The position numbers were made by a program, and so were the translations under genes. This document shows, piece after piece, positions 13,493 through 35,245 of a DNA stretch of 64,000 nucleotides. Origin of the DNA: Chitinophagaceae bacterium (GTDB lineage Bacteria > Bacteroidota > Bacteroidia > Chitinophagales > Chitinophagaceae); assembly GCA_947447265.1 (NCBI GenBank), contig CANFKC010000006.1, forward strand, positions 1-64,000. The letters are read 5' to 3'. The notes beneath the pieces are model-generated. The model was not told the DNA's origin and did not search any database. It saw only the letters and a list, made by a program, of their open reading frames with translations. Position 1 is the first letter of the stretch. Every line of letters begins with the position of its first letter.

Positions 13493-16400
13493 ATGAAATT
13501 GTTATTTAACAGGAGCTTGCTTTTATCTTTCCTTTTTTGCTTTGTTTGTGCCAGGAGTTTTGGAACAGTTACAACGATTTGGTCTACAGGTACGGCCAGT
13601 AGCTTTACTTCGGGTAATATAGCCGCAATATCAAGTGGGACAGGTACCCTGACAAGAAATGACAACTACATAGTTGTTCAGGATTATCGTACTACTTCCA
13701 CAACACTCGCCAGCAACAAGGGCTATGCGGTATTTGACCTTAGCAGTATACCTGCCGGGTCTACCATAACCAGCGTAACATTGGGTTGGTTTGATAGTGC
13801 TGTTGTGGGATCGCATTCTTCGACTACTACATACGCTGTATATGGCTATCCCGGTGATCTGTCGAAGATGACAAGCGTACAAGCCCTGAATAATGCAATG
13901 GAAAATACACTTGCAGCCAATTCGGCATTTGCTTTGTATTCAACAACGGCCACAACAGGGTTCGGAACTTCAATTTCGAACAATACTGCAACCCTTACCA
14001 ACCCGTTCTTTGCCACATATACGGGCAGCAAGATATCGATATGCTGGACGATGGCGTCTAACACTGCATCGAACACTGCTATTCATTATATCATAGGGGA
14101 GCGCGGAAACACTACCACAACTACAACAAACTATCACGCTCCGTACATGACGGTTACGTATACGGCTCCGGGTACTTGCTCAGGATCTCCTGCATCGGCA
14201 ACTTCGTCAGCAACGCCTGCGTATGGTAACTCAACTACCACCCATTTACTCAGGTTATCAGGTTCTACTACTGCGTCTAACCTTACTTTTCAGTGGCAGT
14301 CTTCTCCTACCGGTACCAGTTCGTGGACTGACATAAGCGGGGCAACTACCCCGACCTGGACATTTACAGGCGTATCGGCAGTTACTTATTACCGTTGCAA
14401 CGTTGGTTGCGGTGCCAGTGTTACAGCTTCTTCAGTCAGTTCAGTCGGTTTAATGACAGCTTCTTCCTGCACACCTACTTATAGTAATGCCTATTATGCG
14501 CGTGCGTGGGCAGGCACTACCTATTACTGGGGCAATATGACGATAGCTCCCATTATTTTCAGTGGCGGAGGCGGAACATCGCTTATTGATTCGACTGCGG
14601 CATCTGGTACAAGTTATGCCGACCACACCGACGACATATATTGTCAGGGGCTCAGACTCTTTAAGTCCAACACCTATAATATCTCTATGCGGTCGGGATT
14701 GAACATACCTCAGAACGTTCAGGTGTGGATAGACTATGATAATAACGGTGCTTTTGCTTCTTCTGAAAGTATTGGCGGAGGTGCACTTGCAACAGGTGCT
14801 ACGGTTTATAATTTCACGACTTCGGCTATTTCTTCCAGTGTTGCAACTGGCTCTTACCGTATGAGGATAAGGTCAACTTATTCCAGCCCGGCATATCCTT
14901 CAATTGACCCTTGTACCGGCTACACCTACGGCGACTGCCGTGATTATCTGGTTGCCATCTCCGACCCTCCTCCGGGCGCAACAGCAACACCTTCTTCATT
15001 GTCATTCACTACAAGTTTTGGCCCAACCACTGTTGGGAGTACATCACCAGCTTTGAGTTCAGCAGTTAATGCAACGTTCCTGTTGCCAGCATCCGGTACT
15101 ATTACGGTTACCGCGCCTGCTAACTTTACTGTTTGCAGTACTTCTACCGGCAGTTACGTTTCTTCTTACACCATATCTTATTCATCGGCAACATCCACTT
15201 CAACGGTATTTGTAAAATTTTCTCCTTCGGCAGTAACATCTTATAGTGGTAACGTTACTATAACCGGAGGTGGCATTGCTTCTGCCGTAAACATACCTGT
15301 TTCCGGTAACGGTTCTTCAGCTTGTTCGGGTACGCCTACTGCAGGTACGGCGGCAGCCAGTCCAGCCAGCGGTAACAGCACTTATACGTTTACCCTTACG
15401 TGCGCTGGTTTTACCGCTTCTGGAGGTATGCAGTTTAATTGGCAGTCATCGCCGGATAGTACAAGCTGGAGCGATATTTCTGGTGCCTCCACTGCAGTAT
15501 ATACATTTACGGGCATCACTTCCAGCACCTATTACAGGTGCAGGGTTACTTGTAGTGGCTCAGGTTCATCTGCCAATACTTTTGCTGCCTATATACAATA
15601 TTTTTCACCGTCAAGCTGCACGCCTACATGGAGCAGTGCGCCCGGCAGTTATACTGTTGGCATAGCAACGAACCCCTTTAAGGTAAACGGCGCTTCAGGT
15701 ACTACGATTGTTGACAATGCCGCTCCTTCTGCAGGTTATGTTGACAATTCAGCTACCATGGGCTGTACCTTAAATACTGGTACAGCATACACCTTTACGG
15801 CGGGAAGCAGCTCCACGCCACCCATGTCTTACCAGGTGTGGATAGACTTTAGCAATGACGGCGTTTTCCAAACTTCAGAATCTGTGGGCGGAGCCAATGT
15901 CAATGGTTCTACAACACCAACATTTATTGTGAACATACCAGCAGCCAGCAGTGCTATAACAAGCGGCTACTACCGTATGAGGGTAGAAGCAGATCAGTAC
16001 TATCATGCTTATCCTGGTTTGTTGCCATGTCCAAATGGTTCTTCAACTTTAAACTATAATGGAGAAGTAAGGGATTACAAGGTTAGGATTATTGCAGTTC
16101 CTTATGCCACGGCGACACCATCAAGTATCTTATTTCCTCCAACAGTACCGGGCACATACTCTGGTATAGTCAATGCTACTTTTTCGGCTTCCTACCTTTC
16201 TCCCGCGGCAGGAAATATTACTGTTACTGCGCCGGCCAATTTCCTTGTTTTTAATGGCTCTGCATGGGTAACCAGCTATACCATTTCTTATACATCATCA
16301 ACGGTAACACCTACTACCGTGCCGGTTTATTTCGGTCCGGGCGCAACAGGTACATTTACCGGTGTCAATGTTACTTTCACCGGTGGTGGCATCACTACAC

Positions 16401-19400
16401 AGAATGTGGCTGTTTCCGGTGTTGGCGCGGCTGTTTGTTCCGGTACACCGGCTGCAGGCACTGTAACCGCCAGTCCTTCGGGTGGAGGAGCGTCTACCAA
16501 CTTTACGTTGAGTTGTACCGGGTATTCTGCATCAGGCGGTATCCAGTTCCAGTGGCAGTCTTCCGGTGATAGTTCAACCTGGTCAAATATTTCAGGTGCC
16601 ACACTGGCCAATTACAGTTATACGGGCACAAGTTCAAACACATATTATCGTTGTAATGTCACTTGTTCTGCATCTTCGGTTACCACACCAACGCCTGCAT
16701 TGCTGGTGCCTTACATTACCCCTTCAAGTTGCACGCCTAACTGGCAGTACGGACCGTACTATTACACAGTTGGTACAGCAACTAGTCCTTTTAAACTGAC
16801 AGGTTCTACCGGGTCAATTAACGATAACAGTACTCCATCGAGCGGATATGTTGATAATACCGCTATTTATGGCTGTACTTTAATAGCCGGTAATACTTAC
16901 ACGGTTACTGTTGGTAATCCCGGTACTACGGGTTTTGGCTACCAGATCTGGTTAGACTTTAACAATGATGGTGTTTTCCAGACCTCTGAAAAAGTTGGTG
17001 GTATGGCTTCGACTACTGCGGTGGCTCAAACTATACCCATTGTAATTCCTTCAGGCAGTACGTCTATTACTCCTGGTGTATATCGCATGCGTGTAGAATC
17101 AGAAACAAGTGGTTCACATGCCTACCCTAACTTATTGCCTTGCCCTAACGGCAGCAGTACTTCTAATTCGCAGGGTGAAGTAAGAGATTACAGAATTACG
17201 CTGCAGGTGAACCCAACACCGATTGTATCGCCAACAACTATTTTATTCCCGCCGACAACTGTTGGCTCAAGTTCACCAACAGTTAACGTAAACTTCTCTG
17301 CAATGTATCTTGCGCCTGCAGTCGGCAATATTACCGTTACAGCGCCGGCCAACTTCCAGGTATATAATGGTACAGCCTGGGTTACCACCTATGCAATAGG
17401 CTACACTGCCAATACGGTTGGTGCAACTACTATACCTGTTCAATTTAACCCGACTGCAGCTACAACTTATTCTGGTACCAACGTTACTATTACGGGTGGT
17501 GGGCTTACCACTATTAATATTGCCGTATCAGGCACTGGTGCTGCAGTATGTTCTGGTACACCAACAGCTGGTACAGCCAGTTGCAGCCCGCTTTATGGCA
17601 ACAGCAGCACTTCGTTTACATTAACATGCAGTGGATATTCAGCTGCAGGTGGTATACAGTTCCAGTGGCAATCGTCTTCCGATAGCAGCACGTGGTCTAA
17701 TATTTCGGGTGCTACATTAGCTAACTATACTTTTACCGGCTTTACTTCGAACAAATATTACCAATGCATTGTTACCTGCAGCGCCTCATCTTTAAGTGCT
17801 ACAGCAGCTACCGGACTTATCAGGTATCTGGCTCCGTCAAGTTGCACGCCATCATGGTATAGCCCGGGTAGTAATAATACTTATTCATTGGGTAATGCTA
17901 CAAATGGTTTCAAAATAACCGGTTCGGCGGGCTCCATAGTAGATGCGACAGCCGCAAATGCAACCGGCCTTGGATATACTGATAATACCGCAACATTGGG
18001 TTGCACGCTTAATGCAGGCAGCACTTACACTGTTTCCACCGGTTCCAGCACCACAGGCATGAGTTTCCAGGTTTGGATTGATTTCAATAATGATGGAACT
18101 TTCCAGTCTACAGAATCAGTTGGTGGTATTGCAGGTTCTACTTCAACTACACAGACGTTTACTATCACAATACCTACAGGTAGCGCTTCAATAGCTCAGG
18201 GTGTTTATAGAATGAGGGCAATGAGCGAATACAGCGGTGCAGGGGCACCGGCATATCCTAGCCAGAATCCATGCCCTCCGGGAACTACACCATACTATTA
18301 TGGTGACGTGCGTGACTATAAAATAACATTGTTTGTGCCTCCGTTTGCTACGGTATCGCCAACTTCGTTAACGTTCTCGCCAACTACCATTACTACCAGC
18401 TCTGCTGCACAAACAGTGAGCTTGACAGGGTCTTATTTGTCTCCTTCTTCAGGTAACTTAACCGTTACGGCACCTACCGGCTATTATGTTTCAAGCACGA
18501 CTTCGGGTTATGCGAGCAGTTATACGTATTCATATACCGGGTCTGCGTCATCGTCAACTATTTATGCAATCTTTAGTCCGACCACCGCTACAACATATAG
18601 CGGTAATATTTCGGTAACCGGTGGCGGTATTGCAACTGTTAACGTTGCCGTTACGGGTACAGGCGCAACGGCGTGCTCCGGTACACCTACTGCAGGCACG
18701 GTATCGCCAAGTCCTACCAGCGGAAGCAGTGCGACAACATTTACATTAAGCCTTACAGGCGCTTCAGCGCTGGGCGGGCTGACTTATCAGTGGCAATCAG
18801 CATCAACCTCTGGTGGTACTTATACGGATATTACCGGTGCAACCAATGCTACCTATGTGTTCAGCGGATTAAGTGCTACTACCTACTATAAATGCGTCGT
18901 TACCTGCACGGCAGGCGGAAGCCCGGCGACAGCAACGTTTGGCACAGTTACATTTACATTGCCTACAGCCAGCTGTACACCGGTTAGTGGTAACCCTGCA
19001 GCCTCATGTACGTCAGTTTTAATGCGCTTTTCTTCAGTTGGTATAACTGGTGAAAGTGGTACTTCGATAGCTGATGCGACTGCCTGTAACAGTACAGGTT
19101 ACCTTAACCAGACAGGCTTATCGTGCACATTAAATAAAGCAAGTACCTATACCATGACTGTAACTACGGGTACTTCCAATCCATGCTATACACAGTTCTG
19201 GATAGATTTTAACAGTGATGGTACATTCCAGTCAACAGAATCAGTTGGCGGCTCGTCAACTTCATTTACCGGAACAAGAGTTATTACAATTGCAATCCCA
19301 ACAACAGTACCTTCCGGAACCTTCCGTATGCGAGGTATTATGTCATGGCAGAGTAACTCTCTCATCTATCCGAATATTGATCCATGCTTACCGGCATCGC

Positions 19401-22400
19401 AAACGTATGGAGAGGGTAGGGACTATACTGTAAGGGTACAAAACCCGGGACCAATATGTTCTACTACACCAACCTCTCTCGATTTCGGTACGATCTTAAC
19501 AAGTTCTACCTCAAGTGCACAGAGTAATGCAATTGCGGCATATTTTATGACGCCTACTTCAGGCAACATCACAGTAACTGCACCATCTAATTACCAGGTC
19601 TGCAGTACCGTTGGTGGAACTTATGCCAGCTCTTATACCATAGCATATACGCCTGCTACTTATTCATTAGGTACATTGTCGTCTGCTACTATCTATACTA
19701 AATTCGTTGCGCCTGCCTCAGTAGGTACTTATGCCGGAAACATTACAATTACCGGTGGCGGTCTTTCAGGTATTGTTATACCAGTTGCCGGTATCAGCGC
19801 CAATCCTTGTACGGGTACTCCGGCAGCGGGTACAGCGTCTGCAACACCATCAAGTGGAATTTCCGGTACTACTTTCGCGCTTTCATTAGCGGGTGCTTCT
19901 GCAGGGTTGAGCATTTCTTACCAATGGCAATCATCAACTACAGGTACTTCAGGAACCTATAGCAACATATCAGGAGCAACAAACCCTAGTTATTCAGGTG
20001 CCCTTACTACCAGCACTTATTTCCAGTGCGTAGTAACGTGTGGTAACTCTGGTATTTCTTCCAGCTCAACTGTAGCGTTTGTGCCTGTTTGGTGCCAGCC
20101 TGCATTTGCGTCAACCTCAGGTTGCTCTATGACTATTATAGTTGCAAACGCATCAAATCACTTTAAATTAAATGGTTCTACAGGGTTTATCAACGACTCT
20201 GGCGCTTGTGGCACTAACTATTCTAATAATTATGCTACCATGAGTTGCACGCTTAACTCAGGCACCAGCTATTCATTCACTACCGGGGGCGGTGGCTCTA
20301 TTGGTTATGGTGTCAGCGTCCAGATATGGATAGATTTCAACAACGATGGTACTTTCCAATCAACCGAGAGCGTTGGCGGTATATCCAGCTACAACGCAAC
20401 AACTGCCGTGCCAACGGGAACAATTACTATCCCTGCGGGTAGCGCGGCAATTGCGCCGGGTACTTATCGCATGCGCGTTGAAGCAATTAATCCAGGTACA
20501 GGCTACCCTGGCATGAACCCTTGCCCTGACGGAACATCTACCTACAGCTATGGCGAGGTGCGTGACTACCGAATTACTTTGAATGTGCCGCCTATCGGTT
20601 CAGTTACGCCAACTTCTATGGCGTTCCCGATAACGACTATTGGGGCAAGTTCAGCACCAATAACTGCGACAGTTTCCGGTATTTACCTTACGCCGGCAAC
20701 GGGTGCCCTTACAGTAACCGCCCCAACACTTTTTGAAGTGTTTGACGGAGGTTCTTGGGTAAGCTCTTATACTATTTCCTATTATTCAAGCACAGCTTCC
20801 GCTTCCATACAGGCACGTTTCAGCCCGGTTGCATCTGCTACATCTTCTGGTAATATTACTATTACCGGTGGTGGTTTAAGCACACTTAATATTGCAGTTA
20901 CCGGCACCGGTGCCACTGCTTGTTCTGGTACGCCTGCAGCAGGTGTTGCCACTGCAAGTCCTGGTTCTGGTGGTGCCAGCACAACTATTACTTTAACCTG
21001 CTCCGGTTATTCTACATCTGGCGGCTTGCTATTCCAATGGCAGTCAACCAGCGATACCACTACGGCCTGGACTGACATCGGCGGCGCAACAACTGCTGTA
21101 TATGCAGTAACAGGAATTACTTCTAATATTTATTTCAGGTGTAATGTTACCTGTAGCGTATCATCAATAACTTCGTCTACGCCTTCAAGGCAGGTTATCT
21201 TCCTGCCGCCGTCTAGTTGCACACCAACATGCAGTAACCCTACTGGGGCGTGCAGTTCATTTGGTTTGTATATCGCCAGCACCACGAACCACCTTATGCT
21301 TAATGGTGCTATTGGTTCTATTAACGATGGTGGAGCTTGTACGGGAACTGGCTATGTTGATAATTCAGGTTCTATGTCATGTACGCTAAGCGTAGGTACG
21401 ACCTATACCATGACGTGTGGTAGTGGTGGATTTAACAGCATGGCTTACCAGGCTTGGATAGATTTTAATAATGACGGTATTTTCCAGGGTTCAGAAAGTG
21501 TAGGTGGTCGCACTACGGTTACTACTGCAGCTCCGACTTTTACTATTACCATCCCAACTGCCAGCAGTTCGATAGTTGTTGGTGGCACATACAGGTTAAG
21601 GGTAGCAGGCGACTTTAGTAATAACTATCCTTCTCTTCCGCCTTGCCCTACTTCCGGTACGTCAACTTATGGCGAAGTAAGGGATTACAGGGTTACCCTT
21701 AATTCAACGCCGGTAGCGACAGTTACACCTGCGTCTATGGCTTTCTCTCCAACAACAGTGGGTTCAAGCTCATCGCCTATGAGCAGCGTATTGACTGCAG
21801 CATACCTCGTGCCTTCGTCGGGTACCTTCACGGTAACGGCTCCGTCAGGTTTCGATGTTTATGACGGATCGTCGTGGACGAGCAGTTATACGATAAGTTA
21901 TTCCGGCGCTTCACTTTCGTCTGCAACTATCCAGGTAAGGTTCAGTCCTTCAGCAGCTACTTCCTATTCAGCTAACGTTGCTATTACTGGTGGTGGTATT
22001 GCAACTACTAATATAGCAGTAACGGGCATGGGTGCAGCAATTTGTTCTGGTACACCAACAGCAGGAACCAGCGGCGTAAGTGTTGCAATGGCTGGTGCAA
22101 CTACACCAATAACACTTACCTGCACAGGCTATACTGTTTCAGGTGGCATCCAGTTCCAGTGGCAGTCAACGGCTGACACTACAGCTGGCTGGTCAAATAT
22201 TGGAGGTGCTACATTGGCATCATATAGCTTTACCGGTATCACAGCTAATACTTATTACAGGTGTCAGGTAACCTGTAGTGCATCCGCTATAACTACTTCT
22301 ACAAGTGCTGCATTTATACGTTTCTTTGCCGTATCAAGCTGCACTCCATCATTTGTTAACTACGGTTGCGCATACGGTATGGTTGTTGCCACTCCTACTA

Positions 22401-25400
22401 ATCACTTTAGGTTGAATGGTTCTGCGGGCTCTATAGATGATGCTAACGTATGCAGTTCTTCAATACACTACAGGGACTTTACTTCCAGCCTTGGCTGCAC
22501 ACTTACAGCAGGGGCATCCTATACAGCAACATGCGGAAATGGTGGCGGCAACCCTGTTAGCTACCAGATATGGATAGATTTCAATAATGACGGTACCTTC
22601 CAGTCAACTGAAAGCGTGGGTGGTAATGCCGGGTCAACTACTGCAACTGCAGTGATGACCTGTGCGCTTACTATCCCTTCCGGAACAACGACAGGCGTAG
22701 TACCTGGTATATTCAGGATGAGGGTTGTTTCATTCTACTATTACAGCGGTACTTATCCAAGTATTCCACCATGCCCTAATGGTGTGTCTCCTAGTAACTA
22801 TGGCGAAGTGCGCGACTATGCTATTACCTTAAATGTGCCGCCTATCGCAGTTATCACTCCAGCTACATTATCGTTCCCTACAACTACGGTAAGTTCCAGT
22901 TCATCGCCGCTTACTTCGGTTGTAACAGGGAGTTATTTGACACCTGCCGCGGGAACGATTACGGTAACGGCACCAACCGGCTATACTGTATTTGATGGGT
23001 CGTCTTATGTTGGTAGTTATACTATTTCGTATACTGCTGCTACTTTAGCTGCTACTACTATTTCAGTTAGATTCAATCCGACTGCTGCAACTACCTATAC
23101 CGGCAACGTAACTATTACCGGTGGCGGTTTATCAGGTGCGAATATCGCTGTTAATGGCACTGGCTCCAGCAGTTGCTCAGGCACACCAACAGCAGGTACG
23201 GCTACATGCACACCTGCAACAGGTTCAAGTGCTACAGTATTTACCATAGGCCTTACCGGCACGACTGTAGCTGGTGGGTTAACCTACCAGTGGCAATCAT
23301 GCGCGACTCCATCCGGCACTTATGCCGCGATTGCGGGGGCAACAAATACTACTTATTCTTTCTCGGGACTTGCTGCAACAACGTATTACAACTGTGTCGT
23401 AACGTGTTCAACGTCAGGTTTATCTAATACAGCTACATACGATACGGCTACTTATATATTCCCGGCGGCATCGTGTACCCCGGCGCCAACTACGCCGTCT
23501 TGCGGTTTCGGCATGGCGATGACATCATTTGCACTGGCAGGTGCACTCAGCACTTCTATCGCCGATGGGTCTGGTTGTTCCGGTACCGGTTATCAGGATA
23601 GGACAGCTTTGTCATGCACACTATACAAGTCATATTCCTATAACACAACGCTCGGCTTCAGTTCAGGTAACCCATGTATCACCCAATTCTGGATAGACTT
23701 TAACGGGGATGGTACATTCCAGACCACTGAATCTGTTGGTGGCACCAATACCTCATTCTCAACAACTACCAATATCACTTTGACCATTCCGTCAGGTGTA
23801 ACATCGGGTGTTTACAGGATGAGGAGTGTATTGACATTCTATGGTTCGGGCTATTCTTACCCTACGCTTAATCCGTGCATGACATCGTATACTTATGGTG
23901 AGGCAAGGGATTATAAAGTAAATATTACAGATGCTCCACCATTAGTTACTGCATATCCAACTACTATTGCATTCGGTGGTGTTACGGCCGGTACAGCCTC
24001 TCCGGCACAATCATTCTCCATGGTAGGGGCATTCCTGGTGCCTACTTCAGGTACGCTTACCGTTACGGCTCCTGCCAACTATTCCGTATGCAGCACATTG
24101 GGTGGCACTTATGCAGGTTCTTACACGGTAGCATATACTGGCGGAACTCTTTCTTCTACCAATGTATTCGTTAAATTCAATCCACCAACTGCAGCCTTCT
24201 ATGGTGGTACAGTACAAATATCCGGTGGTGGACTAGCTTCATCAGTAAACGTTTCCGTGAATGGTACTGGTGCATCCGCTTGTTCCGGTACACCGACTGC
24301 GGGCACTGCAGTAGTTACTCCATCTACAGGTACAATTTCTACACTATTTGCACTCAGCCTTACAGGCACAACAACCGCAGGTGGTTTAACTTACCAGTGG
24401 CAGTCGTCATCTACCGGTTATACGGGTTCTTACACCAATATTTCAGGTGCAACAAGCCCTACATATTATTTCACGGGTATCAGTTCTAATAAGTATTTCC
24501 AATGTATCGTCACTTGTCCTACTTATGGTACATCAACATCAACCGTTGCTAATGCTACATTTGTATTACCTACACCATGCTCAACGCCTATAACTTATGG
24601 GTCATCAGCTTGTTCAGCATCAATGGGAGCAACAATTCAAGGGTATTTCCTTACAGGTTACCTTGGGTCTTTCAGCGATGTTCTGGCATGCGATAATACT
24701 GGTTACCGTGACAGGACATCTCTTGCTCCGGTATACCTAGTTACGGGTAGTTCGTACAACCTTACGCTCTCAACTACTTCAGTTTCTCCTTATAATGTGA
24801 ATGGCCAGATATGGATTGACTTTAATGGCGATGGCACCTTCCAGACAACTGAAAGTGTAGGTGGCGGCAATAGCATGACTGGTCCGGCTAATAATATTAC
24901 ACTAACTATACCTTCGGGAGTAGGCACTGGTATATTAAGGATGCGCGCACTTGTTACCTACGGTTCGGGTGTTAGCTATCCATCATTAAACCCGTGCGGA
25001 GGATATAACTATGGTGAGATCCGTGACTATAAAATAATTATGGTTTCACCAGTCAGCTGCAGCGGAACGCCAGCTCCGGGTCCTTTGACGTCATCGGCCA
25101 CTTCCGGTTGCAGCCCCGTGGCAAGCTTATTGTCGATGCCTGACCTCGCGGGTATAAGCGGCCTGACCTATCAATGGCAGGCGTCTACTACCGGAGCCGG
25201 CGGTTCTTATACCAACATCTCTGGTGCTACAGGTTATACTTACAGTTCATCTTCAACTGCGAATGCTTATTACATCTGCTCCGTTACCTGCACCGGTTCG
25301 GCTTCAACCGCAAATTCCGGCAGCCAGTTTATTTCGGTAACGCCATCACCTGGTGCCATAACAGGTACTACCGCTATTTGTGTAGGTGCAACTACTACTT

Positions 25401-28400
25401 TGTCTAATTCATTGAGCGGCGGCACCTGGTCAACTTCAGCTTCAGGTGTGGCATCTGTAAATCCGTCTACAGGTTTGGTACGTGGCATGTCGGCAGGGTC
25501 TTGTACAATTTCTTATACAACATCTGGTTGCTCGCCAGCTACCTCAAGTTTCACGGTTAATGGTACCCCTGGTGCAATATCAGGCTTTACCAGCCTGTGT
25601 GTTGGTGGTTCATCAACACTTACCAACCCTACGGCTGGTGGCTCGTGGAGCAGTGCTAATACAGCAATTGCAACCGTAGTGCCTGCTACAGGTGTAGTTA
25701 CGGCAGTAGCAACGGGTACAACAACCATTACCTACAGCAATGGTTGCGGCACTGCAGCTACAACCGGCTGGACTACAAACGTATCTCCATTACCAATAAC
25801 TGGTCCGGGATCTATTTGCGTATCTTCTACAGGAACGTTCACCGATTCGGTATCTGGTGGTACCTGGAGCAACTCCCCAACTACTGTGGGTACGATAGGT
25901 GCTTCAACGGGTGTATTCACAACATCTGCATCAACCGGAACTTCTGTAATAACTTATACTATTGGTTATTGCAGTATTACGGCTAATATTTCAGTGGGCA
26001 GTTCAGGACCTGCAGCTATTACCGGACCATCTATTGTTTGTGCTAACAACAATATTACGCTATCCGATGCCACCACCGGTGGCTCATGGTCAAGCTCCAG
26101 CCCATCTGTTGCGAGCGTGAACAGTTCGGGTACAGTATATGGTATTACTTCAGGAAGCGTTACAATAACTTACAGCACAGGTTGCTCTTCTCCGGCAACA
26201 CAAAGTGTAACTGTAAACGGTTCACCTATTGTTATAACTTCGTCTACTGCTTGCAGCCAATCGGCGCTTTCTATGAATGCCGGTACTGGCGCAGGTACGT
26301 ATACCTATTCATGGAGTGGCCCTTTAAGCTTTACTTCAACTGCACAGAACCCTGGCATTTCAAATGCATCAACATTGCGTTCTGGTATTTACAGTGTATC
26401 TGCAACACAGAGTGGTTGTGTTACTTCTAAATCATATTGGGTAACTGTCGATAGTACACCACAGGTAAACGTTACTGCGTCTCCGGCAATAATTTGCCCA
26501 GGTGGCACCAGCAACCTTACCGATGTTGTTACTTCGCCGTTAGCGGGCTCCAGCAACTATGTTGCATACGCTATTCCGTATGCTCCAATTTCGCTTACGT
26601 CAGTTACGGCCGGTCCTGTTGGCGACAACGTTAATGCAACTGCAACGCTTCCATTCAGCTTTGATTTCTATGGTACGTCTTATTCATCCATGAACATTTC
26701 TACCAACGGCTATATCAACTTCGGGGCAGCCAGCACGACTTTTACCGCATCTGCCTTGCCTAGTGCTGTAGCGCCGCTCGCAATGATTGCTCCATTCTGG
26801 CATAACCTGAACGCGGCGGGTGGTTCTATATCTTACGCTACAGTAGGTACAGCGCCATACCGTACATTCGTAGTTAAGTTCAATGGTGTTGCTGATGCGT
26901 CTGGTGGTGGAACAAATTCGGGCCAGATAGCATTGTACGAAACCAGCAACATTATCGAGATGTTCATTTCGCAAGCCAATACTGCTTCTACGTACCTTGG
27001 TGTTTGTGGTATACAGAATGCAGCCGGTAGCCTGGCAGTAACTGTTCCGGGTCAGAACAACGTCAACTATGTTATTAATAACGCAGTGGCTGGCACAGGC
27101 TGGAGGTTTGTTCGTCCGAGCTATACTTATTCATGGTCTCCTGCAACAGGCCTCAGCAGCACGGTTATCAGCAGCCCTGTTTCAACGGGCCTTACGGCAA
27201 CACAGATATACACGGTCGTTACTAAAGACGTAAACAGTGGATGTACAGCTGGTAAAACTTCTCCGTTAACGGTGAATGTCTTCCTGCCAACTGCATATAC
27301 TATGGCGCCTGCTAATGGTTGTTCTTCAGGTACAGCAATAACATTGCCTTCGTCTGAAACCCTGGTTAGTTACCAGTTGTACCGTAACGGCTCTACGGCA
27401 GTAGGTTCCCCGGTTACAGGCACAGGTAGCAGCATATCTTTCGGTACACAAACTATACCTGGCATTTACACAATTGTAGGTACCGTAATAGCGGGAGGCT
27501 GCACGCAATCAATGTCTGGCTCTACAACTATATATACAAGTCCTTCGGCTTACGCTGTAACCGGTGGAGATGGTTGTACCATTCCAGGTATTGCGATAGC
27601 ATTGTCAGGTTCAACAAACCTGGAAACTTACCGGTTATATAGCGATACTACTGCCTTCGGTTCGCCTGTAACTGGCACCGGTTCAGGCATTAGTTTTGGT
27701 ACTATTACAACTGCAGGTAACTACACGGTTATTGCTACTGATACATCAGGCTATTGCCGCACTACCATGACGGGTGGTTCTGTTATTAACCAATCGCCAA
27801 CTGCTTACAATGTTACTGGTGGTTCTGGCTGCTCGGCTGATGGCCTGAATATTGGTCAGTCTGGCTCTGATACTGGTGTTTCTTATCGTTTATATAACGG
27901 CGCGTCAGCAGTGGCAGGCCCATGGGCTGGTACCGGAAGCTCTTATTCATGGGGTGTATATTCAACACCTGGCACATATACTATTGTAGGTACATCAACA
28001 GGTGCAGGTGCTTGCCAGACTACTATGTCCGGCAGCGCATCCATTACTGCATCGCCAACTATTACATTGGCGGCCGATACTTTACACGTTTGCCAGCCAT
28101 ACACATCTGCATCGCTCAATTATTCAGCAACAACAGGTTCTCCTACTACATATAGTCTTACATGGGATGCCGCTGCATTAACTGCAGGGTTCTCGTCCGT
28201 AACTTCAGCTTCATTGCCTGGTAGCACTATCGCTATCACAGTTCCAGGCACTGCTGTAGGTACTTTCAGGGCTGTATTCACAGTGGGCACTGGCTCTTGC
28301 CTGAGTGTGGCTGATACCATTACACTGAACGTTTATGCAGCTCCGGCAGGTTCCATTACTTCGGCAGTTGCACCGTGTGTTGGCTATGCTACTAATATTG

Positions 28401-30493
28401 TTTTCACCGGTACATCAGGCGCTACATTAGCTTACAAGATAGATGGTGGTACCATACTCAATGCAACGCTTACGGGTGGTACATTCTCTTTAAGTACAGG
28501 AGCTATTACTTCGGCTCACACGTATACTTTGTATGATGTTCACAATCCGGCTTGTGGCGTTACCATAGACAGTACCATTACAGTTACACCGACACCAATG
28601 CAATGGACAGGTACTGTAAGTACTGACTGGAACAATACAGCAAACTGGTCTTGTGGATTTGTACCAGGTGCGTCAGATGATGTTACTGTGCCGTCTGGTA
28701 CTACATTCCTGCCAGATATTGCTGCATCAGCTTCAGGAACTGTTCGTAATTTAACTATCGGTTCAGGCGTGGTTATCACACTTAATTCAGGTTCTACCCT
28801 TAATACCAAGGGCAATCTGGTACTTAATGGCACTATTACCGGCTCGGGCCTGTTGACGCTTAATGGTACATCAGCCCAAATAATTACCGGCATAGGCACT
28901 GTTAATAATTTTGACCTGAATAACAGTACTGGTGCAACTGTAGGTAGCAGTTCTAAATTGACAATCAAGAGTACATTAGGAGTAACTGCGGGTGCGCTTG
29001 CAACCGGAGATAGCGTTGTGTTGTATTCTGATTCTATTGCTTCAGCTCGCGTCCTCACGCTACCAGGGTCAGGTTCATCTATTACCGGTAATGTACGGGT
29101 AATGCAATATCTACCTGGTGGTTTCCGCAGGTATCGTTTCTGGAGCCATCCTTTCAGCAACTATATCGGCCTGAGCCAGATACAAAATAACATTGATGTA
29201 ACTGGTGTTGGTGGTTCATCAAACGGATTTACTACTACAGCATCAAATGCGCCATCTGCCTTTAGGTACAATCCTAATGCAGGTAATTCAGCATTGCCTT
29301 CCGATCCGGGCTGGAGGCCATTTACAAGTACCTTTACAACAGACGATAGTAACAGGATTCACAAGTATCAGGGTATACGCGTATTCTTCAGAGGTGCGAA
29401 AGGCGAAGGCCTTGGGTATGCTCCGTACACACCGGGAAGTGCTACTGTAACACAGTGGGGCGCACTTAACCAGGGCGACCAGACCATTTCCCTTGCTAAA
29501 GGTTCGGGTGCAAATCAGGATTATAACATGGTAGGTAATCCTTACGCTTCTCCTGTTAACATTGGCACTGTAATTACGGCTGCTAAAGTTGCCGGAAACA
29601 TAGCAGGTGGTACCTTCTATATCTGGAATCCTTACCTCGGTACAGCGGGTCAGTTTATGGCTATTCTTATAAACACGACAACACCTACGCCATATTACAT
29701 ACAGGCGAATACCTGCTTCCAGGTTCGTGCTGCACATAATAACGATACGCTGAACTTTACGGAAGGAAATAAAAATGCCACATCAACTTATACATTGCTT
29801 AAGGCAATGCCAGAAGCGGTAAGCCTGACTATCTACGATGCTAACTACCACCCTTGGGATATGTTAAATATCCACTTTAACCAGGATGCTACCGAAGAAA
29901 ACGATGATGTGAATGATGGTACTAAACTATCTGCCCCTGATTTCGGCTTCTTCAGTGTTTCCGCTGATAAGAAGGACCTCTGTTTAGACGTTCGCCCTTA
30001 TGAAGCTGGTAAGGTGATTCCGTTGGGTATTAAGAGCGACTACGAGCAGGATTTCATTATGAAAACTGACGGAATAGTTGTTCCGGGTGGTGCTAAGCTT
30101 TACCTGCACGATAAGTTGCTGAAACAATATGTGTTGTTACAGCAGGGTACAGAATACCGTTTCTCTGTAAGTAAAGACAAAGCAACCCAGGGTAGGGAAA
30201 GGTTTGAATTGAGCATGGAGCCTGCCACGCAGGAAGTTGGCGGTCGCTTACATGTTACCATGGTACCGAACCCTGCTACCGACGAAGTGAAGATCAGCTT
30301 CACTGGTGGCAAGAATGAGGCTGTTGCTATCAGGGTGTTGGATATTGCAGGCACTAGCGTATACAATAAGAACCTTGGCGCGCAAACCAGCGGCATGGTT
30401 AAAATATCGCTTAGCGACCTAGCTGCCGGCATCTACATGGTAGAGCTTACTTCAGGCAATGAAAAAGTTGTAGAAAGATTGATAAAAGAATAG
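13493..30493 (+). CDS. giant T9SS-secreted GEVED/Ig-like repeat surface protein (5,666 aa)
   Basis: One uninterrupted frame of 17 kb. In order: signal peptide (residues 1-24); a DNRLRE/CBM96-like beta domain (YAVFDLSSIPAGSTI, to about residue 225); ten repeat units (about 229-3,950) of an Ig-like domain starting CSGTP, a GEVED domain (WIDFNNDGTFQSTESVGG, YRMR, GEVRDY), and a second Ig-like domain (TVTAP, TITGGG); four BIG2-like domains with CVG/GGTWS motifs (about 3,953-4,245); a nidogen-like segment (STNGYINFG, about 4,356-4,530); three AYxVTGGxGC repeats (about 4,600-4,860); a WTG-DWNNTANW domain (about 5,040); and a C-terminal T9SS type A sorting domain (MVPNPATDEV to the end, about 5,585-5,666). 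Composition is dominated by Ser, Thr, Gly and Ala. Adhesin or matrix protein is inferred; no catalytic motif is seen. Confidence 0.93.
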   Translation: MKLLFNRSLLLSFLFCFVCARSFGTVTTIWSTGTASSFTSGNIAAISSGTGTLTRNDNYIVVQDYRTTSTTLASNKGYAVFDLSSIPAGSTITSVTLGWFDSAVVGSHSSTTTYAVYGYPGDLSKMTSVQALNNAMENTLAANSAFALYSTTATTGFGTSISNNTATLTNPFFATYTGSKISICWTMASNTASNTAIHYIIGERGNTTTTTTNYHAPYMTVTYTAPGTCSGSPASATSSATPAYGNSTTTHLLRLSGSTTASNLTFQWQSSPTGTSSWTDISGATTPTWTFTGVSAVTYYRCNVGCGASVTASSVSSVGLMTASSCTPTYSNAYYARAWAGTTYYWGNMTIAPIIFSGGGGTSLIDSTAASGTSYADHTDDIYCQGLRLFKSNTYNISMRSGLNIPQNVQVWIDYDNNGAFASSESIGGGALATGATVYNFTTSAISSSVATGSYRMRIRSTYSSPAYPSIDPCTGYTYGDCRDYLVAISDPPPGATATPSSLSFTTSFGPTTVGSTSPALSSAVNATFLLPASGTITVTAPANFTVCSTSTGSYVSSYTISYSSATSTSTVFVKFSPSAVTSYSGNVTITGGGIASAVNIPVSGNGSSACSGTPTAGTAAASPASGNSTYTFTLTCAGFTASGGMQFNWQSSPDSTSWSDISGASTAVYTFTGITSSTYYRCRVTCSGSGSSANTFAAYIQYFSPSSCTPTWSSAPGSYTVGIATNPFKVNGASGTTIVDNAAPSAGYVDNSATMGCTLNTGTAYTFTAGSSSTPPMSYQVWIDFSNDGVFQTSESVGGANVNGSTTPTFIVNIPAASSAITSGYYRMRVEADQYYHAYPGLLPCPNGSSTLNYNGEVRDYKVRIIAVPYATATPSSILFPPTVPGTYSGIVNATFSASYLSPAAGNITVTAPANFLVFNGSAWVTSYTISYTSSTVTPTTVPVYFGPGATGTFTGVNVTFTGGGITTQNVAVSGVGAAVCSGTPAAGTVTASPSGGGASTNFTLSCTGYSASGGIQFQWQSSGDSSTWSNISGATLANYSYTGTSSNTYYRCNVTCSASSVTTPTPALLVPYITPSSCTPNWQYGPYYYTVGTATSPFKLTGSTGSINDNSTPSSGYVDNTAIYGCTLIAGNTYTVTVGNPGTTGFGYQIWLDFNNDGVFQTSEKVGGMASTTAVAQTIPIVIPSGSTSITPGVYRMRVESETSGSHAYPNLLPCPNGSSTSNSQGEVRDYRITLQVNPTPIVSPTTILFPPTTVGSSSPTVNVNFSAMYLAPAVGNITVTAPANFQVYNGTAWVTTYAIGYTANTVGATTIPVQFNPTAATTYSGTNVTITGGGLTTINIAVSGTGAAVCSGTPTAGTASCSPLYGNSSTSFTLTCSGYSAAGGIQFQWQSSSDSSTWSNISGATLANYTFTGFTSNKYYQCIVTCSASSLSATAATGLIRYLAPSSCTPSWYSPGSNNTYSLGNATNGFKITGSAGSIVDATAANATGLGYTDNTATLGCTLNAGSTYTVSTGSSTTGMSFQVWIDFNNDGTFQSTESVGGIAGSTSTTQTFTITIPTGSASIAQGVYRMRAMSEYSGAGAPAYPSQNPCPPGTTPYYYGDVRDYKITLFVPPFATVSPTSLTFSPTTITTSSAAQTVSLTGSYLSPSSGNLTVTAPTGYYVSSTTSGYASSYTYSYTGSASSSTIYAIFSPTTATTYSGNISVTGGGIATVNVAVTGTGATACSGTPTAGTVSPSPTSGSSATTFTLSLTGASALGGLTYQWQSASTSGGTYTDITGATNATYVFSGLSATTYYKCVVTCTAGGSPATATFGTVTFTLPTASCTPVSGNPAASCTSVLMRFSSVGITGESGTSIADATACNSTGYLNQTGLSCTLNKASTYTMTVTTGTSNPCYTQFWIDFNSDGTFQSTESVGGSSTSFTGTRVITIAIPTTVPSGTFRMRGIMSWQSNSLIYPNIDPCLPASQTYGEGRDYTVRVQNPGPICSTTPTSLDFGTILTSSTSSAQSNAIAAYFMTPTSGNITVTAPSNYQVCSTVGGTYASSYTIAYTPATYSLGTLSSATIYTKFVAPASVGTYAGNITITGGGLSGIVIPVAGISANPCTGTPAAGTASATPSSGISGTTFALSLAGASAGLSISYQWQSSTTGTSGTYSNISGATNPSYSGALTTSTYFQCVVTCGNSGISSSSTVAFVPVWCQPAFASTSGCSMTIIVANASNHFKLNGSTGFINDSGACGTNYSNNYATMSCTLNSGTSYSFTTGGGGSIGYGVSVQIWIDFNNDGTFQSTESVGGISSYNATTAVPTGTITIPAGSAAIAPGTYRMRVEAINPGTGYPGMNPCPDGTSTYSYGEVRDYRITLNVPPIGSVTPTSMAFPITTIGASSAPITATVSGIYLTPATGALTVTAPTLFEVFDGGSWVSSYTISYYSSTASASIQARFSPVASATSSGNITITGGGLSTLNIAVTGTGATACSGTPAAGVATASPGSGGASTTITLTCSGYSTSGGLLFQWQSTSDTTTAWTDIGGATTAVYAVTGITSNIYFRCNVTCSVSSITSSTPSRQVIFLPPSSCTPTCSNPTGACSSFGLYIASTTNHLMLNGAIGSINDGGACTGTGYVDNSGSMSCTLSVGTTYTMTCGSGGFNSMAYQAWIDFNNDGIFQGSESVGGRTTVTTAAPTFTITIPTASSSIVVGGTYRLRVAGDFSNNYPSLPPCPTSGTSTYGEVRDYRVTLNSTPVATVTPASMAFSPTTVGSSSSPMSSVLTAAYLVPSSGTFTVTAPSGFDVYDGSSWTSSYTISYSGASLSSATIQVRFSPSAATSYSANVAITGGGIATTNIAVTGMGAAICSGTPTAGTSGVSVAMAGATTPITLTCTGYTVSGGIQFQWQSTADTTAGWSNIGGATLASYSFTGITANTYYRCQVTCSASAITTSTSAAFIRFFAVSSCTPSFVNYGCAYGMVVATPTNHFRLNGSAGSIDDANVCSSSIHYRDFTSSLGCTLTAGASYTATCGNGGGNPVSYQIWIDFNNDGTFQSTESVGGNAGSTTATAVMTCALTIPSGTTTGVVPGIFRMRVVSFYYYSGTYPSIPPCPNGVSPSNYGEVRDYAITLNVPPIAVITPATLSFPTTTVSSSSSPLTSVVTGSYLTPAAGTITVTAPTGYTVFDGSSYVGSYTISYTAATLAATTISVRFNPTAATTYTGNVTITGGGLSGANIAVNGTGSSSCSGTPTAGTATCTPATGSSATVFTIGLTGTTVAGGLTYQWQSCATPSGTYAAIAGATNTTYSFSGLAATTYYNCVVTCSTSGLSNTATYDTATYIFPAASCTPAPTTPSCGFGMAMTSFALAGALSTSIADGSGCSGTGYQDRTALSCTLYKSYSYNTTLGFSSGNPCITQFWIDFNGDGTFQTTESVGGTNTSFSTTTNITLTIPSGVTSGVYRMRSVLTFYGSGYSYPTLNPCMTSYTYGEARDYKVNITDAPPLVTAYPTTIAFGGVTAGTASPAQSFSMVGAFLVPTSGTLTVTAPANYSVCSTLGGTYAGSYTVAYTGGTLSSTNVFVKFNPPTAAFYGGTVQISGGGLASSVNVSVNGTGASACSGTPTAGTAVVTPSTGTISTLFALSLTGTTTAGGLTYQWQSSSTGYTGSYTNISGATSPTYYFTGISSNKYFQCIVTCPTYGTSTSTVANATFVLPTPCSTPITYGSSACSASMGATIQGYFLTGYLGSFSDVLACDNTGYRDRTSLAPVYLVTGSSYNLTLSTTSVSPYNVNGQIWIDFNGDGTFQTTESVGGGNSMTGPANNITLTIPSGVGTGILRMRALVTYGSGVSYPSLNPCGGYNYGEIRDYKIIMVSPVSCSGTPAPGPLTSSATSGCSPVASLLSMPDLAGISGLTYQWQASTTGAGGSYTNISGATGYTYSSSSTANAYYICSVTCTGSASTANSGSQFISVTPSPGAITGTTAICVGATTTLSNSLSGGTWSTSASGVASVNPSTGLVRGMSAGSCTISYTTSGCSPATSSFTVNGTPGAISGFTSLCVGGSSTLTNPTAGGSWSSANTAIATVVPATGVVTAVATGTTTITYSNGCGTAATTGWTTNVSPLPITGPGSICVSSTGTFTDSVSGGTWSNSPTTVGTIGASTGVFTTSASTGTSVITYTIGYCSITANISVGSSGPAAITGPSIVCANNNITLSDATTGGSWSSSSPSVASVNSSGTVYGITSGSVTITYSTGCSSPATQSVTVNGSPIVITSSTACSQSALSMNAGTGAGTYTYSWSGPLSFTSTAQNPGISNASTLRSGIYSVSATQSGCVTSKSYWVTVDSTPQVNVTASPAIICPGGTSNLTDVVTSPLAGSSNYVAYAIPYAPISLTSVTAGPVGDNVNATATLPFSFDFYGTSYSSMNISTNGYINFGAASTTFTASALPSAVAPLAMIAPFWHNLNAAGGSISYATVGTAPYRTFVVKFNGVADASGGGTNSGQIALYETSNIIEMFISQANTASTYLGVCGIQNAAGSLAVTVPGQNNVNYVINNAVAGTGWRFVRPSYTYSWSPATGLSSTVISSPVSTGLTATQIYTVVTKDVNSGCTAGKTSPLTVNVFLPTAYTMAPANGCSSGTAITLPSSETLVSYQLYRNGSTAVGSPVTGTGSSISFGTQTIPGIYTIVGTVIAGGCTQSMSGSTTIYTSPSAYAVTGGDGCTIPGIAIALSGSTNLETYRLYSDTTAFGSPVTGTGSGISFGTITTAGNYTVIATDTSGYCRTTMTGGSVINQSPTAYNVTGGSGCSADGLNIGQSGSDTGVSYRLYNGASAVAGPWAGTGSSYSWGVYSTPGTYTIVGTSTGAGACQTTMSGSASITASPTITLAADTLHVCQPYTSASLNYSATTGSPTTYSLTWDAAALTAGFSSVTSASLPGSTIAITVPGTAVGTFRAVFTVGTGSCLSVADTITLNVYAAPAGSITSAVAPCVGYATNIVFTGTSGATLAYKIDGGTILNATLTGGTFSLSTGAITSAHTYTLYDVHNPACGVTIDSTITVTPTPMQWTGTVSTDWNNTANWSCGFVPGASDDVTVPSGTTFLPDIAASASGTVRNLTIGSGVVITLNSGSTLNTKGNLVLNGTITGSGLLTLNGTSAQIITGIGTVNNFDLNNSTGATVGSSSKLTIKSTLGVTAGALATGDSVVLYSDSIASARVLTLPGSGSSITGNVRVMQYLPGGFRRYRFWSHPFSNYIGLSQIQNNIDVTGVGGSSNGFTTTASNAPSAFRYNPNAGNSALPSDPGWRPFTSTFTTDDSNRIHKYQGIRVFFRGAKGEGLGYAPYTPGSATVTQWGALNQGDQTISLAKGSGANQDYNMVGNPYASPVNIGTVITAAKVAGNIAGGTFYIWNPYLGTAGQFMAILINTTTPTPYYIQANTCFQVRAAHNNDTLNFTEGNKNATSTYTLLKAMPEAVSLTIYDANYHPWDMLNIHFNQDATEENDDVNDGTKLSAPDFGFFSVSADKKDLCLDVRPYEAGKVIPLGIKSDYEQDFIMKTDGIVVPGGAKLYLHDKLLKQYVLLQQGTEYRFSVSKDKATQGRERFELSMEPATQEVGGRLHVTMVPNPATDEVKISFTGGKNEAVAIRVLDIAGTSVYNKNLGAQTSGMVKISLSDLAAGIYMVELTSGNEKVVERLIKE
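14177..25345 (+). repeat. tandem array of ten ~1.1-kb domain units inside the giant gene
   Basis: The Ig-like start codons (TGY-TCN-GGN-ACN) recur at about 14177, 15322, 16436, 17549, 18673, 19808, 20920, 22043, 23174, 24281 and 25057. The period is 1,107-1,145 bp, and the last interval is shorter because the second Ig-like domain is missing there. Protein motifs are strongly kept but the DNA has diverged at silent sites, so the array is not a very recent expansion. Units 5 and 9 share a distinct GEVED variant (SCTLxK, QFWIDF), suggesting block duplication. Confidence 0.85.
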
Positions 30494-30517: not shown

Positions 30518-30551
30518 AAAAGGTTCCAACGATAATAGTTGGAACCTTTTT
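30518..30551 (+). terminator. strong rho-independent terminator of the giant gene
   Basis: AAAAGGTTCCAAC (30518-30530) pairs perfectly with GTTGGAACCTTTT (30538-30550) around a seven-base loop and is followed by T. It begins 25 bases after the stop codon. Confidence 0.92.
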
Positions 30552-30695: not shown

Positions 30696-31466
30696 ATGAT
30701 CCGGCTGAGTGTTGTTATTATCACCTTTAATGAAGAAAAGAATCTGGATAGGTGCTTAAAGTCAATACAGGATGTTGCCGATGAAATTGTGATAACAGAT
30801 AGCTTTTCTACGGACAAAACTATTGAGATAGCTGCCCGGTATAATGCCGTCATCATTCAGAATAACTTCCTGGGCTATGGCGAACAAAAGAACTTTGCCA
30901 CTTCCTGCGCCAAACACGATTGGATTCTCTCGTTAGATGCTGATGAAGCCTTGACACCTGAGCTGCGCCGAAGCATAAAAGCAGTGAAGCAAAATCCCGA
31001 TCATGTCTTTTATGAAATGCCACGGCTCACCAGCTATTGCGGTCAGTGGATTCATCATGGTGTCTGGTACCCCGACAGGCAAACCAGGCTGTATAACAGG
31101 CAAAAGGGCAGGTGGGTAGAACGTAAGGTGCACGAGTACTGGGCAACGGCAAATAACGAGCCGCTAGGGCTGCTTAAGGGCGATTTACTGCACTACAGCT
31201 TCTCATCAGTAGGTGACCATTTACAGAAAATTGAAAAGTATAGTGAACTTTCCGCGAGGGAGGCGGTTTCGAAACAAAAAGACGTCACTATTTTTAAGAT
31301 GCTTTTTTCCCCGTTCTGGCACTTTTTCCACGAGTACTTTGTGCGTCTCGGCTTTCTCGATGGTTACTATGGTTATATTATCTGCAAACTGTCGGCCTAT
31401 TCCGCATTTTTGAAATGTACCAAAATCAGGTTATACAAAAGGGAGGAAAAGCAATTAGCCAATTAG
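30696..31466 (+). CDS. family 2 glycosyltransferase, WaaE/KdtX-like
   Basis: 256-residue GT-A fold enzyme, probably at the cytoplasmic side of the inner membrane, transferring a sugar from a nucleotide donor to lipopolysaccharide core or a similar glycan. N-terminal SVVIITFNEEKNLDRCL, then IVITDSFSTDKT, the metal-binding D81-A-D83 (LSLDADEAL), and the C-terminal region HYSFSSVGDHLQKIEKYSE resemble the WaaE/KdtX group (beta-1,4-glucosyltransferase of LPS core). The substrate is inferred only. The last codons (Gln-Leu-Ala-Asn-stop) are made from an octamer tandem repeat that begins inside the gene. It converges with rplL across a terminator. Confidence 0.9.
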   Translation: MIRLSVVIITFNEEKNLDRCLKSIQDVADEIVITDSFSTDKTIEIAARYNAVIIQNNFLGYGEQKNFATSCAKHDWILSLDADEALTPELRRSIKAVKQNPDHVFYEMPRLTSYCGQWIHHGVWYPDRQTRLYNRQKGRWVERKVHEYWATANNEPLGLLKGDLLHYSFSSVGDHLQKIEKYSELSAREAVSKQKDVTIFKMLFSPFWHFFHEYFVRLGFLDGYYGYIICKLSAYSAFLKCTKIRLYKREEKQLAN

Positions 31467-31505
31467 CCAATTAGCCAATTCGGCAATTCGGCAATTCGGC
31501 AATTC
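31452..31505. repeat. 8-bp tandem repeat, CAATTAGC x3 then CAATTCGG x3.75
   Basis: Nearly seven contiguous octamers. The first two overlap the 3' end of the glycosyltransferase gene and supply its stop codon TAG. Related AATT-containing units recur between the ribosomal protein genes to the right. Confidence 0.9.
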
Positions 31506-32815: not shown

Positions 32816-32933
32816 TAAATTTGGTAATTTGACAATTCGGCAATTTGACAATGTCCCGCCGATTTTTTCAAATTGTTAGTTAATTTTTTCCGCCATTCGC
32901 TAATTGTCGAATTGGCTAATTGTCGAATTGGTT
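32816..32933. repeat. AATT-type short repeats between rplA and rplJ
   Basis: Clusters at about 32816-32855 (AATTTGGT, AATTTGAC, AATTCGGC, AATTTGAC) and 32895-32933 (GCTAATTGTCGAATTG repeated twice, as GCTAATTGTCGAATTG-GCTAATTGTCGAATTG). The first cluster lies right before the rplJ start and the second touches the rplA stop codon. Confidence 0.75.
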
Positions 32934-34336: not shown

Positions 34337-35245
34337 ATGAAAAAACTATTTACACTACTCATTGTATTGTTCGCATACAATGCCGCCAATGCTCAGTATT
34401 ACTGGTCGGAACAATTTGAGTATCCAAATGATGGTTATCGGAGCCGTTTCGTAATGGATACCACCCACGCTAACAACAGATGGCAAATAGGACACCCCAA
34501 TAAGGTAGTTTTTGACTCAGCTTCCTGTTATTCAATGCCAAACGTTATAGTTACAGATACGGTTAATTATTTCCCACCTAACGATACGTCAGTATTTACC
34601 ATGTATCATGTTTATACTCATTACCCGATGATGCAGGTCATGTTTTACTATAAATTAGATATTGACACGAACATGAAAGCAGTAATGGAAATATCGGGCG
34701 ATAATGGGGCTAATTGGATAAACCCGATTACTGAAGATACAACATATATGTTTTATTGGTCCAGCAAGCCGAGTTTAGACACGTCAACTGCTTCATGGCA
34801 GGCTTTCGAACTGGGGCTTTATCCCTGGGCAAGTGCGATTGCTGGAGGGAGTTACACTTTCCCTCATTATCGTACTTCCGATACTTTACTTTTCAGGTTT
34901 ACACTTATTTCAGGAAGCGACACTACGCATAGGGACGGTTGGATGATGGACGATTTTATGATTGTGAATGCGCCAATGGAGGGCCTTGTGCACTCTGTTG
35001 ATCTGGACTTGAATTTGAATTGTTATCCGGTGCCTGCTGCCTACCGGCTATTCATTGCTAATAAAAAGCCACTTACGAATAAGGCCTTCATTACTGTGAC
35101 CGATGTTTATGGTCGCGAAATCTACAATATGGAGACCAATGATATGTTGGCAACGCTTAACTTCAGCCTACCTGACGGGGTCTATTGTTTGAAATATCGA
35201 ACAGGTGGGAATGTTAGTATGAAAATGTTTACTATCAGGCATTAA
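34337..35245 (+). CDS. T9SS-secreted protein with type A sorting domain (302 aa)
   Basis: Signal peptide at residues 1-20 (MKKLFTLLIVLFAYNAANAQ). The middle (about 21-215) is a jelly-roll-like beta domain with WSEQFEYPNDGYRS, NRWQIGHPNK and RDGWMMDDFMIVN, resembling MAM-type or lectin-like modules of Bacteroidota exoproteins. The last 80 residues fit a T9SS type A sorting domain (LNLNCYPVPAAYRLFIAN, ITVTDVYGREIYNM, LPDGVYCLKY). A surface or extracellular location is therefore likely; the binding partner is unknown. It has its own strong promoter. Confidence 0.85.
   Translation: MKKLFTLLIVLFAYNAANAQYYWSEQFEYPNDGYRSRFVMDTTHANNRWQIGHPNKVVFDSASCYSMPNVIVTDTVNYFPPNDTSVFTMYHVYTHYPMMQVMFYYKLDIDTNMKAVMEISGDNGANWINPITEDTTYMFYWSSKPSLDTSTASWQAFELGLYPWASAIAGGSYTFPHYRTSDTLLFRFTLISGSDTTHRDGWMMDDFMIVNAPMEGLVHSVDLDLNLNCYPVPAAYRLFIANKKPLTNKAFITVTDVYGREIYNMETNDMLATLNFSLPDGVYCLKYRTGGNVSMKMFTIRH

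Follow-up and report, generated by a model that had tools for sequence, protein, structure and literature searches.

GEVED domains were defined in the CshA-type fibrillar adhesins, where the adhesive domain lies at the N-terminal tip (PMC10952558), and a fibrillar adhesin is defined as a protein with stalk domains and at least one adhesive domain (PMC8286594). In the CshA/CshB family (PF20009) the GEVEDs form part of a long multi-domain stalk with a non-repeated N-terminal domain, are paired with an upstream NR2 domain, and belong to proteins that are sortase-anchored. The Periscope Proteins (SasG, Rib, Sgo_0707, CdrA) likewise project an N-terminal domain on a stalk of tandem domains, which are near-identical repeats whose number varies between strains (PMC8201768).

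Large adhesin-like proteins exported by the T9SS are represented in Flavobacterium johnsoniae by SprB, which has a type B sorting domain (CTD) and a dedicated shuttle, SprF, and by RemA, which has a type A CTD and a lectin domain. The typical adhesins of this species are type B substrates, not type A. Type A CTDs use PorV and type B CTDs use SprF-like shuttles in F. johnsoniae, where SprB loses its mobility or is released once it carries a type A CTD, and some type A CTDs, such as that of AmyB, release their cargo into the medium (PMC12618676). A further giant, the T9SS-secreted and Ig-rich grappling hook protein A (GhpA) of Aureispira sp. CCB-QB1, whose PDB sequence has 5,898 residues, is said to assemble into heptameric hooks.

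Here we describe a giant protein, encoded by a freshwater Flavipsychrobacter bacterium, that has points in common with all of these. It carries GEVEDs in a long stalk behind a non-repeated N-terminal domain, as CshA does, but the ten GEVEDs here are interspersed with Ig and ASH domains, the tip is predicted to be CBM96/DNRLRE-like, and the protein ends in a T9SS type A CTD as its sorting signal. That CTD and a putative carbohydrate-binding domain liken it to RemA, although neither RemA nor SprB has been described as an Ig-GEVED-ASH array. It is comparable to GhpA in size, Ig content and predicted secretion route.

The giant gene and its surroundings

The gene occupies positions 13493..30493 of the forward strand in the window, the 64,000-nucleotide stretch of contig CANFKC010000006.1 that was analysed. 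Its frame opens with ATG and runs for 5,666 codons without an internal stop, exactly as the first-pass annotation had it when it reported a single intact 17-kb frame. A terminator-like hairpin of 13 pairs (30518..30550, +) lies 25 bp past the stop codon, so the gene is probably transcribed on its own. The next gene downstream encodes a GT2 glycosyltransferase, and farther along lies a second, small protein (302 aa, 34337-35245) with a type A T9SS sorting domain. Short satellites of the AATTCG/GGCAATT type, with 8- and 16-bp units, occur near the small downstream genes (31451-31505 and 32818-32931). A 365-aa gene upstream, to which profile scans assigned no family, was considered as a partner and rejected, as the genus members that have its homologues are not the ones that carry the closest giants.

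An array of ten divergent units

Ten GEVED domains (PF20009) fall in this one frame, with E-values of 6.6e-19 to 4.4e-13 and all above the curated Pfam cut-off of 24.4 bits, and they recur at a near-constant spacing of 1,110-1,131 bp (~1.12 kb), a regularity far beyond chance. Cut at a conserved CSGTP start, the array divides into ten units, nine of them 369-381 aa long and the last 259 aa, all on the forward strand. Complete Ig-GEVED-ASH units lie at 14180..15322 (unit 1; GEVED 14714-14953), 15323..16435 (unit 2; 15830-16084), 16436..17548 (unit 3; 16940-17200), 17549..18673 (unit 4; 18065-18328), 18674..19807 (unit 5; 19187-19432), 19808..20920 (unit 6; 20318-20578), 20921..22042 (unit 7; 21446-21697), 22043..23173 (unit 8; 22562-22828) and 23174..24280 (unit 9; 23684-23923), with units 5 and 9 each of a divergent subtype. 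Unit 10 (24281..25057; GEVED 24806-25036) is an Ig-GEVED pair that lacks the ASH domain, and this truncated end recurs in relatives: in every array with an assembled end, among paralogues and relatives alike, the last unit is without ASH.

The first-pass annotation had read the array as ten units of the order Ig-GEVED-Ig. The ten GEVEDs stand, but only nine units are complete, and the second ‘Ig’ is, judged by profile and modelled fold, an ASH (ASPM-SPD-2-Hydin) type domain, not a plain Ig: it has CFAP65-like (E 5.9e-6) and CEP192-like Pfam matches, and its fold matches the SPD-2 domain of CEP192 with Z 11.1-11.7 over ~100 residues (rmsd 2.4-2.7 Å). ASH domains are best known from eukaryotic centrosomes and cilia. 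Two adjacent units, whose structure prediction had been proposed as a check, were modelled with AlphaFold2 (units 3-4, 62 sequences), yielding separate beta domains in series with a mean pLDDT of 90.9 and a pTM of 0.59; at this pTM the domains are reliable and the angles between them are not. The model supports the earlier view of the protein as a long, regular multi-domain fibre.

Units share 40-58% identity at the protein level and 64-75% at the DNA level, and the longest exact repeat within the gene is 21 bp, values that set the array apart from the near-identical repeats of Periscope Proteins. It is because of this divergence that Tandem Repeats Finder, which reported no repeat in the gene, is blind to the array, and the shortness of the longest exact repeat means that short-read assembly would not collapse it. 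Within the GEVEDs a loop of the form D-F-[NS]-x-D-G, which looks like a Ca2+ loop, is kept in units 2-10, with D-Y-D-N-N-G in unit 1. A GEVED profile from the ten units found no significant match among solved structures, and a 62-row profile gave a weak match to an endoglucanase module (7p3u, E 3e-4). A cysteine pair near the GEVED start (unit positions ~110 and ~137) is present in units 5-10 and absent from units 1-4, and the Ig cysteine at unit position 27 is absent from units 1, 5, 6, 9 and 10. A higher-order period of four units was considered and rejected, the lag-4 identity falling within the permutation range (p 0.13; 0.09 for the paralogue on contig C5).

Paralogues and relatives

The array is unusually long and regular, as first described, but it is not unique. 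The host genome (G000) holds 47 GEVED domains in total, including those of two sister giants with 11 units (contig C5, 6,145-aa frame) and eight units (contig C1, 4,629 aa), and relatives within the genus carry 1-52 GEVEDs each; in one of them (G008) a 12-unit giant is complete in a frame of 6,501 aa. In an order-level sample of 299 genomes, in which the host was the sole representative of the genus, the three-domain model reached at best an E-value of 6.8e-47 beyond the host genome, compared with 2e-170 in the host, and most matches spanned the Ig-GEVED part only; strong unit matches outside the host genome come from the genus. The giant is a lineage-specific, conserved variant of the fibrillar-adhesin-like T9SS giants, a general kind that was already known.

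Several of the related loci have features of their own. In the eight-unit sister giant (G000:C1:145157-159043, L011) the interior units alternate between two subtypes, units 2, 4 and 6 against units 3, 5 and 7, with 64-75% identity within a subtype and 49-56% between them, which suggests that this protein grew by two-unit blocks. Another long-GEVED-array type is found on contig CAIYJV010000410.1 (L117), where a 5,341-aa frame has sixteen unit-model matches that, among the matches listed, are two-domain Ig-GEVED units without ASH. At G000:C50:18277-19017 a GEVED frame is broken by an in-frame TAA and is probably a decayed giant.

Beyond the array: a base common to many proteins

The array end is adjoined by an eleventh Ig domain of the unit type (residues 3856-3949, 25058..25339), recognizable from its CSGTP start and WQ/C..C pattern, and relatives have partial unit-model matches at the corresponding place. 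Then follow, on the same strand, three to four Big_2/NUP210-like Ig domains (25340..26242; PF02368 E 1.3e-12, PF25354 E 7e-16), a partial nidogen-like (NIDO) match that stays under its cut-off (26687..26836; PF06119 E 2.1e-4, 21.8 bits against 25), a region of ~550 aa without a Pfam match that probably consists of Ig/PKD-like repeats (26870..28540), and a C-terminal base module of ~600 aa (28694..30490), at the start of which lies a G8-like stretch (28646-28834). The protein ends in a type A T9SS sorting domain (Por_Secre_tail, 30266..30484; PF18962 E 2.4e-14, TIGR04183 E 8.5e-12). The domain search that the first-pass annotation had proposed thus found GEVED, Big_2 and Por_Secre_tail.

Across the genome, 18 proteins carry these C-terminal 600 aa (loci L166-L175), the giant being one and the other 17 being 47-65% identical to it over this module. 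Frames of at least 2,295 aa are found for 14 of the 18, and the module is combined with different stalk repeats, of ~78 aa (contig C13), 56 aa (C19) or 145 aa (C37); related modules are widespread in the family. The picture that emerges from these 18 sequences is of a common base with exchangeable stalks.

All domains identified in the giant are extracellular-type beta domains (GEVED, Ig, ASH and Big_2), and the stalk comprises ten GEVED, nine ASH, eleven Ig and three to four Big_2 domains. An earlier figure of more than 100 domain-equivalents was too high: ~36 domains are assigned and ~1,200 residues carry no assignment, which we estimate to give ~45 in total. Pfam and NCBIfam scans found no enzymatic domain in the protein, in agreement with the first reading; matches to the thermolysin-family model NF047971 span just the last ~150 positions of that model, which are its GEVED tail.

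The N-terminus and a putative tip

The secretion signal claimed for this protein is visible by eye as a hydrophobic, signal-peptide-like N-terminus (residues 1-22, 13493..13558, + strand, the boundary being approximate), and relatives have a similar pattern. Residues 23-230 (13559..14182, +) are predicted to form a CBM96/DNRLRE-like jelly roll, our candidate for the tip of the stalk. The DNRLRE domain that had been proposed here stands as a fold and fails as a profile match: the NCBIfam model scores 12 bits (E 0.16), short of its cut-off of 34, and the Pfam scan of these residues gave no match, whereas an AlphaFold2 model (five sequences, mean pLDDT 66) has as its best two full-domain fold matches polysaccharide-binding CBMs, one for chondroitin sulfate (8wab, VIA Z 13.6 over 169 residues) and one for alginate (7vbo, VIA Z 12.5 over 166 residues), with the next full-domain match at Z 10.3. 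The domain is kept across orthologues and paralogues.

Unit order is conserved between species

A second Flavipsychrobacter genome (G002) encodes an orthologue, on a contig (CANBTK010000015.1) that ends within unit 9. A tree was built from 73 units belonging to eleven proteins or protein pieces, and in it units 1-9 of the giant each pair with the same-numbered unit of the orthologue, all with 100/100 support. Over 3,385 aligned codons the two genes share 74% protein and 68% DNA identity, with a dN of 0.19 and a saturated dS, such that their ratio is indicative only. From the one-to-one pairing and the low dN it follows, as far as sequences can tell, that the array is older than the species split and that its order has been kept under purifying selection; among units 1-9 of the two species we saw no sign of turnover or homogenization since then. 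Given this selection and the unit-by-unit orthology, the 5,666-residue product is a real, working protein. Synteny gave no help, as the 2.3 kb upstream of the orthologue has no match in the window, and orthology is thus based on sequence and unit order, not on neighbours.

Such positional conservation of divergent units is, at the sequence level, the opposite of what is seen in the variable-length stalks of Periscope Proteins, and the unusual point is that units 1-9 have been kept one for one in the two species compared, in an array that seems not to vary in length. It is conceivable, though we would not bet on it, that the array is a fixed-length, position-specific device, every one of its ten units having a conserved surface or role of its own; it may then act as a ruler of set length or as a row of different binding sites, and such roles would explain why divergent units have held their order from a time before the two species parted.

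Export, proposed function and alternatives

The genome encodes a full-length SprA (2,455 bits) and a PorV over cut-off (416 bits), and with the type A CTD these bear out the first-pass claim that the giant is a T9SS substrate. Genome-wide, type A sorting domains number at least 150 and type B sorting domains 33, and the 33 type B matches (TIGR04131) all lie elsewhere than in the giant. Six successive type B CTD proteins are encoded at G000:C21:25993-43093, five in frames of 1,146-1,315 aa and one of 683 aa.

We consider it fairly probable that the giant is a T9SS-exported, fibrillar-adhesin-like surface stalk that presents a carbohydrate-binding-like tip. What we observed are the frame, its domains, the CTD, SprA and PorV in the genome and the conservation seen in the orthologue; that the signal peptide is used, that the protein is anchored at the surface as a rod with the jelly roll at its tip, and that it adheres to a ligand of this class, is inferred. 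Sec would move the chain into the periplasm, where the type A CTD would be recognized by the SprA translocon and the PorV shuttle; the CTD would be cut off on export, leaving the protein C-terminally attached or partly released. The last 600 residues would serve as the base used in common by the 18 proteins, and over it Ig/Big_2-type domains and then the ten Ig-GEVED-ASH units would stand as a long, semi-rigid rod. The array portion, ~30 domains and by our estimate roughly 0.1 micrometre if extended, would hold the CBM-like jelly roll of the N-terminus well away from the cell; there this domain may bind a polysaccharide or glycan carried by particles, algae, the extracellular matrix or neighbouring cells. 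Support for this stalk comes from the type A CTD, SprA and PorV, the beta domains and their serial arrangement in the unit-pair model, the CBM-like fold of the tip, the kinship of GEVED with CshA-type adhesins and purifying selection. The protein has the tandem stalk domains of a fibrillar adhesin (GEVED, ASH, Ig and Big_2), and its candidate adhesive domain is the CBM-like fold (Z 13.6), which comes from a model of pLDDT 66, the profile and NIDO matches being under cut-off. Counting against an adhesive stalk are this modest model, the absence of any defined adhesive Pfam domain over cut-off, the capacity of type A CTDs to release cargo, the type B CTDs of typical F. johnsoniae adhesins and the uncertain inter-domain geometry.

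The first-pass annotation had raised a purely structural fibre as a possibility, and a fibre or spacer (sheath, capsule scaffold or cell-cell spacing) without a ligand-binding tip of its own is the alternative that survives best, even if we judge it unlikely. Repeated Ig, GEVED and ASH domains do make up most of the mass, no adhesive domain passes a curated cut-off, and conservation covers all compared units and not the tip alone; the long multi-domain fibre stands, while its purely structural nature is weakened by the predicted CBM fold of an N-terminal domain that orthologues and paralogues have retained. Less likely again is a soluble cross-linker, released to the extracellular matrix or medium in the way that the type A CTD of AmyB directs, as the type A CTD of RemA anchors part of its cargo, and the combination of so long a stalk with a base module at the C-terminus points to attachment. 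We give little credence to a prey-catching grappling-hook filament: GhpA is a giant T9SS-secreted Ig-domain protein, the fold comparisons returned fragments of it, and its sequence aligns with the C-terminal 1,811 aa of the giant (E 1.5e-8), but this alignment is heavily composition-biased, no GhpA match to the Ig-GEVED-ASH units was found, and the structural hits are of the ordinary Ig kind, level with those to many unrelated Ig proteins.

A SprB-type gliding adhesin, moving along the cell as the earlier suggestion of a gliding role would have it, is slightly less credible still. The giant is comparable to SprB in size and export route, and the genome encodes type B CTDs as well as a GldJ-like protein that scores 299 bits where the cut-off is 458, but the giant's own CTD is type A, which makes such gliding unlikely given what a type A CTD does to SprB; Pfam found no SprB-repeat match, and no PorP/SprF-type shuttle occurs among the neighbouring ORFs scanned, which were part of those in the window. 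Finally, that the array is an assembly artefact, as might be feared for a repetitive gene in a draft genome of 98 contigs, is refuted in practice by the shortness of its exact repeats, by the identical unit order of an orthologue from an independent assembly and by the complete giant in relative G008.

Implications

For the biology of these bacteria, the use of type A instead of type B sorting for adhesin-like giants predicts PorV-dependent, non-gliding anchoring of the surface stalk that we favour. Little work exists on GEVED domains; in this genus they serve as the chief component of a whole set of giant T9SS proteins, in which they are combined with ASH domains and a predicted CBM-like tip. 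The data separate two modes of stalk evolution, one of variable-length arrays of near-identical repeats and one of fixed arrays of divergent units under purifying selection. If the units do have position-specific roles, a cell with paralogous giants 8, 10 and 11 units long would display different tips at different heights.
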